Shown here one piece after another: positions 18,166-23,434 of a stretch of 23,610 nt of DNA. This DNA comes from a virus. Location of the stretch: IMG/VR virus record IMGVR_UViG_3300010354_000671, positions 1-23,610 of that record, one strand, 5' to 3'. Within the stretch, counting starts at the first letter, position 1, and each line of letters opens with the position of its first letter. The notes under the pieces are model-generated. The model saw only the letters and a list, made by a program, of their open reading frames with translations. It was not told the DNA's origin and made no database searches. The position numbers and the translations under genes were made by a program.

Positions 18166-19554
18166 ATGACACCATTAAATCCATATTTTTTACAAGGTTC
18201 TCCATCAGAACAAAGATTAGTTCAAGATTTAATCAATGAGCAGTTGAGAATGTATGGGCAAGATGTTGTTTATATGCCCAGAAAATTTATTGGTGAAAAA
18301 ACAGTAATAAAAGAAAATATTTACACTAAATTTGATGACAGTTTTAGAATAGAAGCATATGTATTAAATTTTGATGGATTCGGTGGTCAGGGAGATATTC
18401 TGTCAAAATTTGGTGTTAGATCTACAGACGAATTGACACTAATCGTATCTAGAGAAAGATATGAAGATTTCATAACTCCATTTTTATCTAGTGATTCAGA
18501 TGTTAAAGTAACAATTCGTCCAGAGGAAGGTGATTTAATATATTTCCCATTAGACAATTCTTTGTTTGAAATTAAATATGTAGAGGGAAAACGTCCATTC
18601 TATCAATTAAATAATTTATATGTTTATGAATTAAAATGCGAACTATTTGAGTATGAAGATGAAGTTATTGATACATCAATCAATGAAGTTGATGAATCAG
18701 TACAAAATTTTGGTTATATAGTAACATTAAATATGGTAGAATCGACAGCAGCACCTTTGGAATTAACCAATCCATCTATACTCACACCAAAATCAGTTAG
18801 TTATATTGATTTAATAAATGATGGATATGGATACAAAGATATCCCAAGAGTAGCAATATCGTCTGCTCCTACAGGAGGAGTTACTGCTTCCGCAGAGGCA
18901 ATAATGAGAACAATACCAGGAAGGAATGGAAGTTCTATTGATAAAATTTTAATCACCAACCCAGGATCTGGATATACAACTCCACCAACTGTTCAGATTA
19001 TTTCATCATCTGGTTCTGGTGGAATTGCAACTGCAGTTATTGACACAGGTGTTCTTGGTCCAATTGGAATCGTTACAGGTGGATTGCAATATACTTCTCC
19101 ACCAACAATAAGTATATCTTCTCCACCATCAGTAAATGGAAGGGTTGCAATAGCTACTGCATCCATTAATTCTTCTGGTTCGGTCACTTCTGTTAGATAC
19201 ATTGATGCAGGAAGTGGTTACCTTCAGGCATTCTCTAGAACTATAACTATTCAATCACCAATTGGAACCTCTCAGGGTGATTATAAATTTAATGAGCAAA
19301 TTACTGGTCAGATATCAGGAACAACTGCATATGTAAAGGAATGGAATTCTATTACAAGAAAACTTAAAGTTTCTATTGTAGATGGTACTTTTGCACTTGG
19401 TGAATCTATAGTTGGTTCTGCTGCAACTTATAAGTTACTATCTGTAAATAATATGGATGATTTTTATGATGCATATGCAGATAATATTAATATAGAAAAC
19501 GAAGCAGATAACGTTATTGATTTTTCTGAAAGAAATCCTTTTGGTGATTACTAA
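18166..19554 (+). CDS. gp14: Neck protein gp14 with C-terminal repeat extension
   Basis: 462 residues against 256 for T4 gp14. Residues 1-185 form the recognisable gp14 part (LNPYFLQGSPSEQRLVQDLI, YGQDVVYMPRKFIGE, LTLIVSRERYEDF, PEEGDLIYFPLDNSLFEIKYVE, YQLNNLYVYELKCELFEYED). Residues 200-350 are an inserted or appended run of three or four GGxGY repeats, followed by 'FNEQITGQISGTTAYV' and 'FALGESIVG' motifs and an acidic tail ending ERNPFGDY. gp14 joins gp13 at the head-tail neck. The extension must therefore project from the neck and could act as collar decoration in place of whiskers (no wac-like fibritin gene is seen here). Assignment of the core is firm; the role of the extension is inference. 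Confidence 0.92.
   Translation: MTPLNPYFLQGSPSEQRLVQDLINEQLRMYGQDVVYMPRKFIGEKTVIKENIYTKFDDSFRIEAYVLNFDGFGGQGDILSKFGVRSTDELTLIVSRERYEDFITPFLSSDSDVKVTIRPEEGDLIYFPLDNSLFEIKYVEGKRPFYQLNNLYVYELKCELFEYEDEVIDTSINEVDESVQNFGYIVTLNMVESTAAPLELTNPSILTPKSVSYIDLINDGYGYKDIPRVAISSAPTGGVTASAEAIMRTIPGRNGSSIDKILITNPGSGYTTPPTVQIISSSGSGGIATAVIDTGVLGPIGIVTGGLQYTSPPTISISSPPSVNGRVAIATASINSSGSVTSVRYIDAGSGYLQAFSRTITIQSPIGTSQGDYKFNEQITGQISGTTAYVKEWNSITRKLKVSIVDGTFALGESIVGSAATYKLLSVNNMDDFYDAYADNINIENEADNVIDFSERNPFGDY
18796..19260 (+). repeat. GGxGY repeats in gp14
   Basis: Units INDGYGYKDIPRVAISS, TNPGSGYTTPPTVQIISS, TGGLQYTSPPTISISS and IDAGSGYLQAFSRTITI, separated by GxGATA-like linkers. Each is about 40 residues from Tyr to Tyr. 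Two copies of TSPP/TTPP make the clearest tandem pair in the window. Confidence 0.88.
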
Positions 19555-19583: not shown

Positions 19584-20633
19584 ATGCTTGGGTCTTATAG
19601 TTATAACGAAGTTATAAGAAAGACGATAATTTCGTTTGGGACTTTGTTTAATAATTTATACATCAAACATCAAGACGAAAATGATGTTGATACCAGTTTG
19701 ATAAAAGTTCCTATTGCTTATGGACCAGTCCAAAAGTTTTTAGCAAGACTTGAGCAAAAACCTGATTTGAGAAAAAGAGTTGCTATAACTTTACCTAGAA
19801 TGTCATTTGAGATGACAAGTCTCCAATATGATCCAGGGAGAAAGGTATCAACTGTTCAAACTTTCAAAGCAGTAAAGGACAATAAACAGACAAAAGTTTA
19901 TATGCCAGTCCCATATAACATTGGAATTCAATTGAGTATTATGGGAAAATACAATGATGATATGTTACAGATTGTTGAGCAAATTTTACCTTATTTTCAA
20001 CCTCATTTTAATTTAACAATTAATTTGGTATCAGCAATAGGTGAGAAAAGAGATGTTCCTGTTACATTAGAAAGTATTCAAATGAGTGATGAATATGAAG
20101 GTTCTTATGATTCAAGAAGAATTTTAATTTATACATTAAACTTTACTGCAAAAACTTACATATTTGGACCAGTTGCTGATAGTACTGATAAATTAATTAA
20201 AAAAGTTCAGGTCGATTATTACACAAATACAAATATTAAGAATTCATCAAGAGAATTGAGATATGTTGCAACACCAAGAGCACTAAAAGATTATGATAAT
20301 GATCAGAGTGCAATTTTAGCAGAAGACATTGATGAAACTTCAACGATAATTAATGTAAATGATTCATCATCATTGTCAGAAGACAGTTATATCATGATAA
20401 ATGATGAAGCACTTTATATTAGAGAAATTTCTGGAAATAGTTTAGTTGTTGATAGAGGGAAGGATAGTACAATTCAATCTGTCCATATTGCAGGTGATGC
20501 AATAAATGTAATAGATTCTTCTGATGATGAATTAATTGAGTTTGGTGATGATTTTGGTTTCAATGAGGATAGATTTGATTTTGGTGATGGTAAAATTTAT
20601 AGTCCATCAAAAGGAGTTGATGTAGATTTATGA
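19584..20633 (+). CDS. gp15: Tail terminator / sheath-stabilising protein gp15
   Basis: 349 residues (T4 gp15 is 272). Residues 1-220 match gp15: YNEVIRKTIISFGTLFNNLY, VPIAYGPVQKFLARLEQKPD, PRMSFEMTSLQYDPGRK, VYMPVPYNIGIQLSIM, QILPYFQPHFNLTINL and SYDSRRILIYTLNFTAKTYI. gp15 hexamers cap the tail tube and sheath and bind the neck. Residues about 243-315 are an extra C-terminal INDE module (YIMINDEALYIREIS, then VVDRGKDSTIQSVHIAGDAI), followed by an Asp/Phe-rich tail. The stop overlaps the gp16 start (ATGA). The extension is absent from T4 gp15 and has relatives in gp7 and the giant protein. Confidence 0.92.
   Translation: MLGSYSYNEVIRKTIISFGTLFNNLYIKHQDENDVDTSLIKVPIAYGPVQKFLARLEQKPDLRKRVAITLPRMSFEMTSLQYDPGRKVSTVQTFKAVKDNKQTKVYMPVPYNIGIQLSIMGKYNDDMLQIVEQILPYFQPHFNLTINLVSAIGEKRDVPVTLESIQMSDEYEGSYDSRRILIYTLNFTAKTYIFGPVADSTDKLIKKVQVDYYTNTNIKNSSRELRYVATPRALKDYDNDQSAILAEDIDETSTIINVNDSSSLSEDSYIMINDEALYIREISGNSLVVDRGKDSTIQSVHIAGDAINVIDSSDDELIEFGDDFGFNEDRFDFGDGKIYSPSKGVDVDL
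20310..20522 (+). repeat. INDE-type module appended to gp15
   Basis: Runs from AILAEDIDETSTIINVND through YIMINDEALYIREIS, LVVDRGKDS and HIAGDAINVID. This is the cleanest of the three copies in the window and begins just after the gp15 core ends, as expected of a modular addition. Confidence 0.75.
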
Positions 20634-21055
20634 AAAACAAATTTGATTCAATAGAAAATGCTTTAAGTATAGATACTACTACTATATCCAAAGAAATAGT
20701 TAAAGATAAAAAAATTTCTATAGAAAAAACCTCATCTAAAGAAGAAAACGCAGAGACAGATTATGAATATACGAGAGGAAATTTATATTCACTTATAGAA
20801 AAAGGACAACAAGCAATTAGTGACATATTAGATGTTGCACAGCAAAGTGATAGTCCAAGAGCATATGAAGTTGCTGGTCAATTAATTAAAAATGTTGCTG
20901 ATGTGTCGGATAAATTAATAGATTTGCAACAAAAAATGAAGAAATTAAATGAGGAGGAACCAAAGGGTCCAAAAAATGTCACAAATGCTTTGTTTGTCGG
21001 TTCAACCTCAGAATTGCAAAAACTTTTAAAGAAAGGTTTTGACACTTCTAAATAA
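20630..21055 (+). CDS. gp16: Terminase small subunit gp16
   Basis: 141 residues (T4 gp16 is 164). The central helical region (residues 51-107: LYSLIEKGQQAISDILDVAQ, SDSPRAYEVAGQLIKNVADV, then SDKLIDLQQKMKKL) has the amphipathic helix-turn-helix layout and the 'SDSPRAYEV' turn of T4-type small terminases, which form rings that stimulate gp17 and recognise DNA for packaging. The N-terminal 45 residues are Lys/Ser/Glu-rich and likely disordered. The C-terminus GPKNVTNALFVGSTSELQKL is also family-like. ATG overlaps the gp15 stop; AAGGAG at 20611-20616 is a possible ribosome binding site 13 bases upstream. Unlike T4, gp17 does not follow directly: two small genes intervene. Confidence 0.88.
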   Translation: MKNKFDSIENALSIDTTTISKEIVKDKKISIEKTSSKEENAETDYEYTRGNLYSLIEKGQQAISDILDVAQQSDSPRAYEVAGQLIKNVADVSDKLIDLQQKMKKLNEEEPKGPKNVTNALFVGSTSELQKLLKKGFDTSK

Positions 21056-21073: not shown

Positions 21074-21616
21074 ATGAAAACTTTTAATGCTTTTATTTTT
21101 GAGGCATCTTCTCTTTGCAATAACACAAGGAAGAATGTAGATTGCCCCATGCACGGAAAGGAAACTTGTCCCGGTTTAAAACCACACAAATCAATTGAAG
21201 AGATTTCAGCAAAACATAATGTCAGTTTAGAAAAACTGACAAAACAATTGAAATTGGGAATTAAAGTTGAAAAAGAGCATACTAAGAATTTAGAAGTTGC
21301 TAAGAATATTGCATTGCAGCATTTAGATGAAGTCCCAGATTATTATACTAAGTTGAAAGCAGTAGAAAAGTCTTCTGTAAAGGAACAATATACTAGGATA
21401 CAGTCTTTTGGTTCAACATATGCTATTTTATTGACTTGGAAGGGAAGATACATACAATCTCAAATGTTTTTTCCACAAACAAAAAGACCAACTAAAAAGG
21501 AAATTTCTGATGAGGTTGGAAAGATTTATCCAGGTGCTCTTGTCATTTCATTTGCACCGGCAATTAAAGACCCAACCAAGCCATTGATGTTAATAGGAAA
21601 AAATAATGAATCCTGA
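21074..21616 (+). CDS. Putative packaged internal head protein: T4 IP-like capsid-targeting N-terminus, Cys/His cluster, DUF5661-like domain
   Basis: 180 residues. The first 11, MKTFNAFIFEA, align closely with the capsid-targeting peptide of T4 internal proteins (remembered as MKTYQEFIAEA). They contain an I-F-E/A site fitting the T4 prohead-protease rule [LI]-x-E/[AGS], with cleavage expected after E10. Next come C15, C24, H27, C32 and H38 (DCPMHGKETCPG), a possible zinc site. Residues about 44-98 (HNVSLEKLTKQLKLGIKVE, EHTKNLEVAKNIALQHLDE, PDYYTKL) follow the DUF5661 pattern. The C-terminal part (about 105-170: IQSFGSTYAILLTWKGRY, QMFFPQTKRPTKKE, KIYPGALVISF) looks like a small alpha/beta domain. 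It lies between gp16 and gp17 with its own late-promoter candidate, and its end overlaps the next gene by 11 bases. Function after injection is unknown; it could instead be a non-cleaved head or packaging accessory. Confidence 0.7.
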   Translation: MKTFNAFIFEASSLCNNTRKNVDCPMHGKETCPGLKPHKSIEEISAKHNVSLEKLTKQLKLGIKVEKEHTKNLEVAKNIALQHLDEVPDYYTKLKAVEKSSVKEQYTRIQSFGSTYAILLTWKGRYIQSQMFFPQTKRPTKKEISDEVGKIYPGALVISFAPAIKDPTKPLMLIGKNNES

Positions 21617-21788
21617 AAATATAAAGATAACAAATTTGAATAAACTTTTAATCTATGAACAACAGGCAAGAGTTATCGATAAAATGGATTTGGATGATGC
21701 TAGAAATTTTGCCAAATCTTATTGCAAATTATATTTGCAGCAACAAGAATTGATAAGTGAATTGGGATCGTCTTTTAAAACTTTATGA
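21606..21788 (+). CDS. Small acidic/helical protein preceding gp17 (unknown function)
   Basis: 60 residues, predicted all-helical: LNKLLIYEQQARVIDKMDLD, then ARNFAKSYCKLYLQQQELI. It starts 11 bases before the upstream stop, with AGGAAA at 21595-21600 as a ribosome binding site, and its own stop overlaps the gp17 ATG (ATGA). The tight coupling to gp17 suggests it is made in step with the terminase and could be a packaging accessory or small regulator. No family recognised. It is too small for a terminase small subunit, which is already encoded by the gene at 20630. Confidence 0.72.
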   Translation: MNPENIKITNLNKLLIYEQQARVIDKMDLDDARNFAKSYCKLYLQQQELISELGSSFKTL

Positions 21789-23434
21789 CAGAAAAACATT
21801 ATAAAGGTAATCCAAATTTAAAAGCAGAAAATGTTCAAATTGAATTTACTCAAGAACAAATTCAAGAATACATTAATTGTAAAAATAACCCAATATATTT
21901 TGCAAAAAAATATGTAAAAATTGTTTCTCTTGATGAAGGTTTAATACCTTTTGAAATGTATGATTTTCAAGAGGAACTTATTAGCAATTTTCACAACAAT
22001 AGATTTAATATTGCAAAATTACCTAGACAAACAGGAAAATCTACCACGGTTGTTTCTTACTTATTACATTATGCATTATTTAATGACAATATAAGAATTG
22101 CCATTCTTGCAAATAAAGCAGAAACTGCTAGAGAACTTTTAAGCAGACTTCAATTATCTTATGAGAATTTACCCAAATGGTTGCAACAAGGTGTTGGATC
22201 TTGGAATAAAGGTTCTTTAGAATTAGAAAATGGCAGTAAAATTGTAGCAGCATCCACATCATCATCTGCTGTCCGAGGGAACTCGTTTAATATCATTTTC
22301 TTGGATGAATTTGCGTTTATTCCAAACCATATTGCAGAACAGTTTTTTAGTTCTGTTTATCCTACTATTTCATCTGGAAATAGTACTAAAGTTATAATCA
22401 TTTCTACTCCCAACGGGATGAACATGTTTTATAAACTTTGGCACGATGCTGAAAGAGGGAAAAATGGTTATATTCCTTTAGAAGTTCATTGGTCTCAAGT
22501 TCCAGGAAGAGATGCAAAATGGAAAGAAGAGACAATAAGAAATACATCAGAAAGACAATTTACTCAAGAATTTGAATGTGAATTTTTGGGTTCGGTTGAT
22601 ACTCTTATTGCACCATCAAAACTGAGAACCTTAGTTTATGATGACCCAATAAAAAGGAGTAAGGGATTGGATGTATATCAAGAACCAAAAGATGAACATA
22701 ATTACCTATTAACAGTTGATGTTTCTAGAGGTACAAATAATGATTATTCTGCTTTTATAATCTACGATATTACAACGTTACCTTATGTTATTGTAGGAAA
22801 GTATAGAAATAATGAAATAAAACCAATATTATTTCCAAATATAATTAATGATATCGCAAAAGCATATAATAAAGCATATGTTTTAGTTGAAGTTAATGAT
22901 ATTGGTGAGCAAGTATCATCAATGCTTCATTTTGATTTAGAATATGATAATATTTTAATGTGTTCTATGAGAGGTAGAGCAGGTCAATTAGTTGGACAAG
23001 GTTTTTCTGGAAAAAAATCTCAACTTGGAATTAAAATGTCCAAAACTGTTAAAAAAATTGGATGCTCCAATTTAAAAACTTTAGTTGAAGATGACAAATT
23101 ACTTGTAAATGACTATGACATAATTAGTGAATTGACTACATTTATTCAAAAAAATCAGTCGTTTGAAGCAGAGGATGGATGCAATGATGACTTGGCAATG
23201 TGCCTTGTGATTTTTTCTTGGTTAGTTGTTCAACCATATTTTAAAGAATTAACAGATAATGATATTAGAAAAAGAATATATGAAGAACAAAAAAACCAAA
23301 TAGACCAAGATATGTCCCCATTTGGTTTTATTGTTGATGGAACAGATAATGAATCAACTTTTGTTGATTCTGATGGTGATAGATGGTATACAGATGAGTA
23401 TGGAGATGTTTCTTTTATGTGGGATTATAGATAA
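21785..23434 (+). CDS. gp17: Terminase large subunit gp17 (packaging ATPase-nuclease)
   Basis: 549 residues (T4 gp17 is 610). ATPase domain: Walker A RQTGKST (81-87), Walker B IIFLDE (170-175, with D174 and E175), coupling motif STPNG (207-211). Nuclease domain of the RNase H type: D312 in VDVSRG, E369 in VEVND, and D468/D469 in CNDDLAM, matching the catalytic acidic triad of T4 gp17. All key residues are present, so both activities should be intact. It docks on the portal, pumps DNA into the prohead and cuts the concatemer. The N-terminus is short before the ATPase domain, and the acidic C-terminus ends DEYGDVSFMWDYR. Start by ATGA overlap with the 60-aa gene; no SD is seen, consistent with coupled translation. 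Confidence 0.97.
   Translation: MTEKHYKGNPNLKAENVQIEFTQEQIQEYINCKNNPIYFAKKYVKIVSLDEGLIPFEMYDFQEELISNFHNNRFNIAKLPRQTGKSTTVVSYLLHYALFNDNIRIAILANKAETARELLSRLQLSYENLPKWLQQGVGSWNKGSLELENGSKIVAASTSSSAVRGNSFNIIFLDEFAFIPNHIAEQFFSSVYPTISSGNSTKVIIISTPNGMNMFYKLWHDAERGKNGYIPLEVHWSQVPGRDAKWKEETIRNTSERQFTQEFECEFLGSVDTLIAPSKLRTLVYDDPIKRSKGLDVYQEPKDEHNYLLTVDVSRGTNNDYSAFIIYDITTLPYVIVGKYRNNEIKPILFPNIINDIAKAYNKAYVLVEVNDIGEQVSSMLHFDLEYDNILMCSMRGRAGQLVGQGFSGKKSQLGIKMSKTVKKIGCSNLKTLVEDDKLLVNDYDIISELTTFIQKNQSFEAEDGCNDDLAMCLVIFSWLVVQPYFKELTDNDIRKRIYEEQKNQIDQDMSPFGFIVDGTDNESTFVDSDGDRWYTDEYGDVSFMWDYR

Follow-up and report, generated by a model that had tools for sequence, protein, structure and literature searches.

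The 23.6-kb window analyzed here is a whole virus record and carries a block of T4-like structural genes, among them gp14, gp15, gp16 and gp17. The gap between gp16 and gp17 holds two open reading frames, one of 180 aa (21074-21616) and one of 60 aa. A reading made from the sequence alone, without database searches (the sequence-only reading), had placed the 180-aa ORF between the terminase subunits, and profile matches to both flanking genes establish this position (Table 1). The large terminase is 79% identical to that of S-CREM1 and 73–77% identical to those of many other cyanomyoviruses. The 60-aa ORF, directly 5’ of the large terminase gene, is kept in this clade. Elsewhere in the block, the gp14-like neck protein (window 18166-19554) has a C-terminal extension past approximately residue 200 that resembles tail-fibre/baseplate protein repeats (PHROG hits 5342, 701 and 708).

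Table 1. Coordinates of the features discussed (window positions unless a contig is given).
Feature	Position	Strand	Basis or remark
Small terminase gp16	20630..21055	+	PHROG 445, E=6e-53
Late-promoter-like CTAAATA	21048..21054	+	19 nt upstream of start codon
Precursor ORF, 180 aa	21074..21616	+	Predicted mature 170 aa (A11-S180), 19.2 kDa, pI 9.5
Leader (propeptide), codons 1-10, MKTFNAFIFE, capsid-targeting sequence	21074..21103	+	T4 match, kept in relatives
Predicted prohead-protease cut after E10, codons 8-11 (I8 F9 E10 / A11)	21095..21106	+	Fits gp21 motif
Cys/His-rich stretch, residues 14-33, possible small zinc-binding element	21113..21172	+	phrog_32143, E=7e-4
DUF5661 (PF18905), residues 43-99, all-helical	21200..21370	+	E=6e-16
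Second protease-like site V102-K103-E104/Q105, DUF5661 / C-module junction	21377..21388	+	C-module alignment
C-terminal module (C-module), residues 105-175	21386..21598	+	AF2 beta-beta-alpha-beta fold, pLDDT 77.5
Conserved ORF, 60 aa	21606..21788	+	phrog_27081, E=8e-15; syntenic in relatives
Large terminase gp17	21785..23434	+	Pfam Terminase_6N/6C; 79% identity to S-CREM1
Short MKSFKQFISESVNI-type genes	L056:6271-6579; L059:4111-4428; L060:3938-4258; L308:1959-2288; others		

Residues 1-11 of the 180-aa ORF, MKTFNAFIFEA (window 21074-21106, + strand), comprise the leader and the first residue of the predicted mature protein. They had been likened to a T4 internal-protein leader, MKTYQEFIAEA. 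In the T4 record AF158101, IPII and IPIII start in this way (IPI starts MKTFKEFTSTTTPVSTITEA), and the likeness holds at M1, K2, T3, the aromatic residue at position 4, F7, I8, E10 and A11. In T4, residues 1-10 of IPIII suffice for packaging, residues 4 and 7 weigh most in targeting and residues 8 and 10 in processing, and gp21 cuts after L/I-x-E (review, PMC9026906). The targeting residues F4 and F7 and the processing residues I8 and E10 are all present in the window protein, with A11 at P1’. The proposed prohead-protease site, I8-F9-E10/A11, thus fits the T4 gp21 motif (PMC9026906) and is kept in relatives. Cleavage after E10 would leave A11-S180, in agreement with the mature length of about 170 residues that was predicted earlier.

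Similarity to the T4 proteins is confined to the leader. In the BLASTP alignment with IPIII, only residues 1-12 of the window protein matched (67% identity, E=0.066), and no convincing similarity to IPI-III was found by BLASTP past residue 12. Membership in IPI, IPII or IPIII proper was therefore rejected, as the mature parts are unrelated. In the AlphaFold model, residues 4-11 form a helix, with low confidence (pLDDT ~57). A mis-called start was also rejected because an in-frame stop immediately precedes the ATG, with no codons between, and the leader is kept in orthologues.

Pattern searches were performed with permuted and reversed controls. The pattern M..[FYWL]..F[ILMVF].E occurs at 1 of the 223 start-like codons in the window that have at least 50 codons following, and at 2 of 3,428 start-like codons in the S-SCSM1 genome. 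The DNA form of MK.[FY]..F[ILMF].E gave 32 matches in 25 phage records as compared to none for the backwards pattern, and the DNA pattern for MKTF..FI.EA gave at least 119 stretches in viral contigs as compared to one for a codon-permuted control. With these controls near zero, a chance match was rejected; the leader match is not due to chance. An in-frame stop lies within 15 codons upstream of 73 of the 84 leaders examined, which are therefore gene starts. The first search pattern left positions 3, 6 and 11 free, and at these the 48 distinct leaders follow T4, with S/T at position 3 in 38, Q/E at position 6 in 32 and A/S/T/G at position 11 in 43.

Matches to the MK.[FY]..F[ILMF].E form in the T4 record itself were IPII, IPIII and gp61.1. 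The last of these, a 54-aa hypothetical protein (L168 / L307; AF158101 18966-19130, minus strand), has a capsid-targeting-like start, MKTFKEFIKEDM, and is a candidate fourth protein of T4 with such a sequence.

The mature parts behind the 84 leaders fall into 37 unrelated groups. Pfam names among these cargoes include SAM lyase, cytidylyltransferase, GNAT, AAA_33 kinase, glucosaminidase, DPBB lytic transglycosylase, DUF6267 and DUF6321 alone. These results bear on a reading in which the window protein is an ordinary structural or packaging accessory, such as a terminase partner, whose N-terminus is an amphipathic helix merely resembling the T4 leader. The gene order gp16-X-gp17 and the existence of homologues without a leader would fit such a role, but it is made very improbable by the codon-permuted control, by the occurrence of the leader on so many unrelated groups at gene starts throughout genomes, and by the mass spectrometry (MS) association in S-CREM2 described below.

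In the closest relatives, contigs L002 and L003, the orthologues are 85% and 83% identical and carry the leader MKTFNTFIFEA. More distant relatives keep a leader at the syntenic gene, including MKTFSQFLLEA, MKTFQEFILEA, MKPFSQFISEA, MKSFKEFIKEA, MKNFKEFIEEA and others. Altogether 13 distinct leaders were seen at this gene (e.g., MKTFSQFLLEAT, MKNFKEFIDETK and MKSFKEFIKEAN), varying mainly at positions 3, 5, 6 and 9, while the downstream modules change. In distant relatives the part downstream of the leader is swapped, or lengthened to more than 500 aa; in S-SSM7 or Sf-FS3 the cargo is a single module of 82-83 aa, and the Sf-FS3 gene encodes a leader (MKSFQKFLGEG) and the C-module, nothing else. 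The sequence-only reading would have counted homologues lacking the leader against itself. The syntenic genes keep the leader, but several homologues are without one, including the MS-detected S-SCSM1 gp029 and S-CREM2 ORF137; the leader is therefore not required in every member.

Two further gene types were observed among the relatives. Many cyanophages have a second short leader gene between the terminase genes (~100 aa, starting MKSFKQFISESVNI and alike) with a diverged C-module; it is present in S-SRM01, S-B43, S-SCSM1, S-CREM1 and others. Long homologues without a canonical leader (L062, L112, L124 and L072) have a conserved N-terminus, SF..W, followed about 15 residues on by I-x-E/DYEFSMAR. 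This N-terminus may be an extended leader of the kind seen in T4 IPI.

The sequence-only reading had called for a search for the gp21 protease. The window stops short of the gp21 position, and the search covered the contigs of relatives. A gp21 prohead protease is present downstream on both closest contigs, with 75-78% identity to S-SCSM1 gp40. Among 14 long leader-bearing contigs, five had a gp21 match, all five with a T4-type large terminase, and several fragments had neither. In the major capsid proteins of S-CREM2 and S-SCSM1, the expected end of the propeptide reads LTE/A or LAE/A (FLTE/A in T4). Upstream of the leader genes, [CA]TAAATA was found within 80 nt in 51 of 83 cases, as compared to 170 of 635 other ORFs (P=8e-10; shuffled mean 6.6). 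The late promoter of cyanophage S-PM2 is NATAAATA (PMC2984593).

Published virion proteomes were used to assess whether leader-bearing proteins are found in particles. In S-CREM2, 52 of 219 proteins were identified in the virion (PMC10665884 Table 3), and all five motif-bearing CDS are among them (relaxed motif; hypergeometric P=6.5e-4): the SAM hydrolase gp6, gp13, the kinase gp14, gp136, which is encoded directly after the small terminase, and the cytidylyltransferase gp154. The relaxed motif was set after leaders had been seen elsewhere, and the figure from the stricter motif MK.[FYWL]..F[IL].E is therefore safer; with it, four of four are virion proteins (P=0.003). The S-SCSM1 NMNAT (gp281), which starts MKSFLQFLKEA, is also a virion protein by MS (PMC9602691), yet S-SCSM1 gp030, with the leader MKTFKQFMSES, has no virion-protein annotation. 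Homologues of the C-module are likewise found in virions, namely S-SCSM1 gp029 (GenBank product ‘virion protein’) and S-CREM2 ORF137. The authors of the S-CREM2 study could not exclude co-purification of regulatory or abundant proteins; the shared leader argues for true packaging over co-purification. The S-CREM2 virion list also contains the Cas9-annotated gp12 (L153:7704-10313), in which a leader-like site, LRFASFMAEA at residues 17-26, is preceded by 16 extra residues.

Entry into the prohead need not mean delivery to the host. The T4 proteins gp67 and gp68, and the assembly role of IPIII, are examples of core or morphogenesis components. By analogy, the leader could direct the window protein to the prohead core as a component that is retained or degraded, not ejected as an effector. 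Consistent with this are the position of the gene between the terminase genes and within the structural block, the head aberrations that follow loss of T4 IPIII (PMC9026906), the absence of an assigned function for the modules, and the several protease-like sites, as in core proteins. Such a role is nonetheless rather unlikely, because enzymes that play no part in assembly (SAM lyase, cytidylyltransferase, GNAT and AAA_33 kinase) carry the same leader and the cargo is highly variable, down to the single module of S-SSM7 or Sf-FS3.

The predicted mature protein is itself modular (Table 1). The Cys/His stretch recurs in L075, L079, L132, DSL-LC02 and S-SM2. The DUF5661 assignment scores 58.9 bits against a Pfam gathering cut-off of 27, and AF2 places helices in this region at 41-48, 52-70, 73-86 and 90-103 (pLDDT ~90). 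C-module homologues lie between gp16 and gp17 in many cyanophages. The N- and C-parts of the homologues were aligned separately, and at the second protease-like site the C-module alignment has E at P1 in 32 of 32 sequences and V/I/L/M at P3 in 30 of 32, with P2 and P1’ variable. In the window protein P1’ is Q at this site, as compared to A at the leader site.

Structural comparisons gave few leads. In Foldseek searches of the PDB with models of the C-module and of the DUF5661/N-part, no match was found at E<=0.001. A PDB sequence search with C-module and N-part profiles returned a CAP repeat as the best match (E=4e-4), and no stretch passed alone. A VIA comparison of the C-module had as its top look-alike T7 Gp2, an RNA-polymerase inhibitor (Z 5.0, rmsd 2.2 over 48 residues); because ribosomal proteins tie with it, this match is no more than a lead. 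The VIA look-alikes (T7 Gp2, the RNAP epsilon subunit, ribosomal L18a/LX and phi29 p6) all lie within noise.

The long homologues are mosaics of small modules: DUF5661, DUF6321, LRDWF, CWxGY, KDACYHK, RYCP, the C-module and others. An [ILVM]-x-E motif stands just upstream of module starts in 73 of 98 distinct contexts, as compared to 28.5 in shuffles (maximum 42 in 5,000), and the enrichment holds separately for seven of the nine module types; in the same proteins 11.6% of random 8-residue windows contain it. Because the contexts come from related sequences, thinned at 8/12 identity, the significance is approximate. Judged by its sequence, [ILVM]-x-E is the gp21 cleavage motif. Since modules are joined at it, the gp21 protease probably separates them, in the window protein at VKE/Q, and the long homologues look like polyproteins that would be diced in the prohead. 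The mosaic architecture and the second conserved site, VKE/Q (residues 102-105), go beyond what the sequence-only reading had proposed.

The junctions could instead be conserved N-terminal edges of modules, or uncut relics of leader fusions, and not protease sites. The E belongs to each recognizable boundary, and a leader can be followed by one module only (DUF6321 in L197, MKTFKQFIKEA), so fusion could leave relics. On the other hand, the same P3/P1 pattern stands before about eight unrelated modules with P2 and P1’ free, and an E in every one of the 32 C-modules is not expected of a dead relic. This origin for the junctions is less probable than protease sites but has an appreciable chance of being correct.

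The sequence-only reading had also suggested a candidate host-takeover or anti-defence protein. T4 IPI inhibits a type IV restriction enzyme (PMC9026906), and the same leader occurs on SAM lyase, which belongs to an anti-restriction enzyme class. In the window protein neither homology to IPI nor a defence-related domain was found, and the best fold look-alike of the C-module, T7 Gp2, is within noise. An anti-defence or host-takeover role is possible in principle and unsupported by the mature sequence, which is unrelated to T4 IPI-III; that this is an injected anti-defence protein like IPI appears quite unlikely.

Taken together, these results suggest that the product of the 180-aa ORF is very probably an internal head protein of a T4-like cyanophage, with a capsid-targeting leader, trimming by gp21, modular cargo and probable ejection. 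The gene is probably expressed late, from the CTAAATA promoter next to the terminase genes. The precursor would attach to the prohead core through F4 and F7, after which gp21 cleavage following E10 (IFE/A) would yield a basic protein of 170 residues inside the head. The cargo comprises the Cys/His stretch, DUF5661 and the C-module, which gp21 probably separates at VKE/Q. The mature protein would then probably exit the head together with the DNA. Capsid targeting and trimming to 170 residues are well supported and likely; ejection with the DNA is probable by analogy with T4.

At the level of the class, the result is a portable capsid tag across marine T4-like phages together with candidate polyproteins, and this is of more interest than the one gene. 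As a kind, the tag is already known (the T4 capsid-targeting sequence), while mosaic cargo with protease-motif junctions appears to be new. In a literature search that mostly lay outside subscription papers, no link of the T4 capsid-targeting sequence to cyanophages was found. If the interpretation is correct, the proteins carried in the heads of marine T4-like phages can be predicted from a tag of 10 residues; these would include NMNAT, SAM lyase, kinases, acetyltransferases and many uncharacterized proteins. Since the tag occurs on dozens of phage proteins that are unrelated to one another, and several of these are present in purified particles, it can be used to list candidates for injected proteins. 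It also offers a mechanism where cyanophage proteomics papers left open whether proteins are packaged or co-purified. A polyprotein diced in this way would give a phage a new means of loading several effectors with a single address label. That a universal capsid tag loads interchangeable injected effectors in T4-like marine phages, some as gp21-diced polyproteins with one leader, is proposed tentatively, with a chance of being correct that falls somewhat short of even.

T4 IPI, IPII and IPIII are among the known systems nearest to the window protein. It shares with them the leader sequence and register, the cleavage motif, a small basic mature protein (predicted here), gp21 in the phage lineage and a late-type promoter motif. 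It differs from them in lying between the terminase genes, in its unrelated mature sequence, in its modular cargo and in the second protease-like site. In phage P1, an N-terminal signal of DarB is sufficient for loading into the head and delivery to the host (PMC9024508), but that signal has a different sequence and belongs to a different phage group. S-SCSM1 gp029 and S-CREM2 ORF137, both MS-detected, have a homologous C-module and the same neighbourhood upstream of the large terminase; they differ in being longer (517 and 490 aa), in having other modules and in lacking a canonical leader at the start. The cyanophage NMNAT/cytidylyltransferase proteins S-SCSM1 gp281 and S-CREM2 gp154 (MKNFSSFLTEA), also MS-detected, have an unrelated enzyme cargo but carry the same leader as the window protein.
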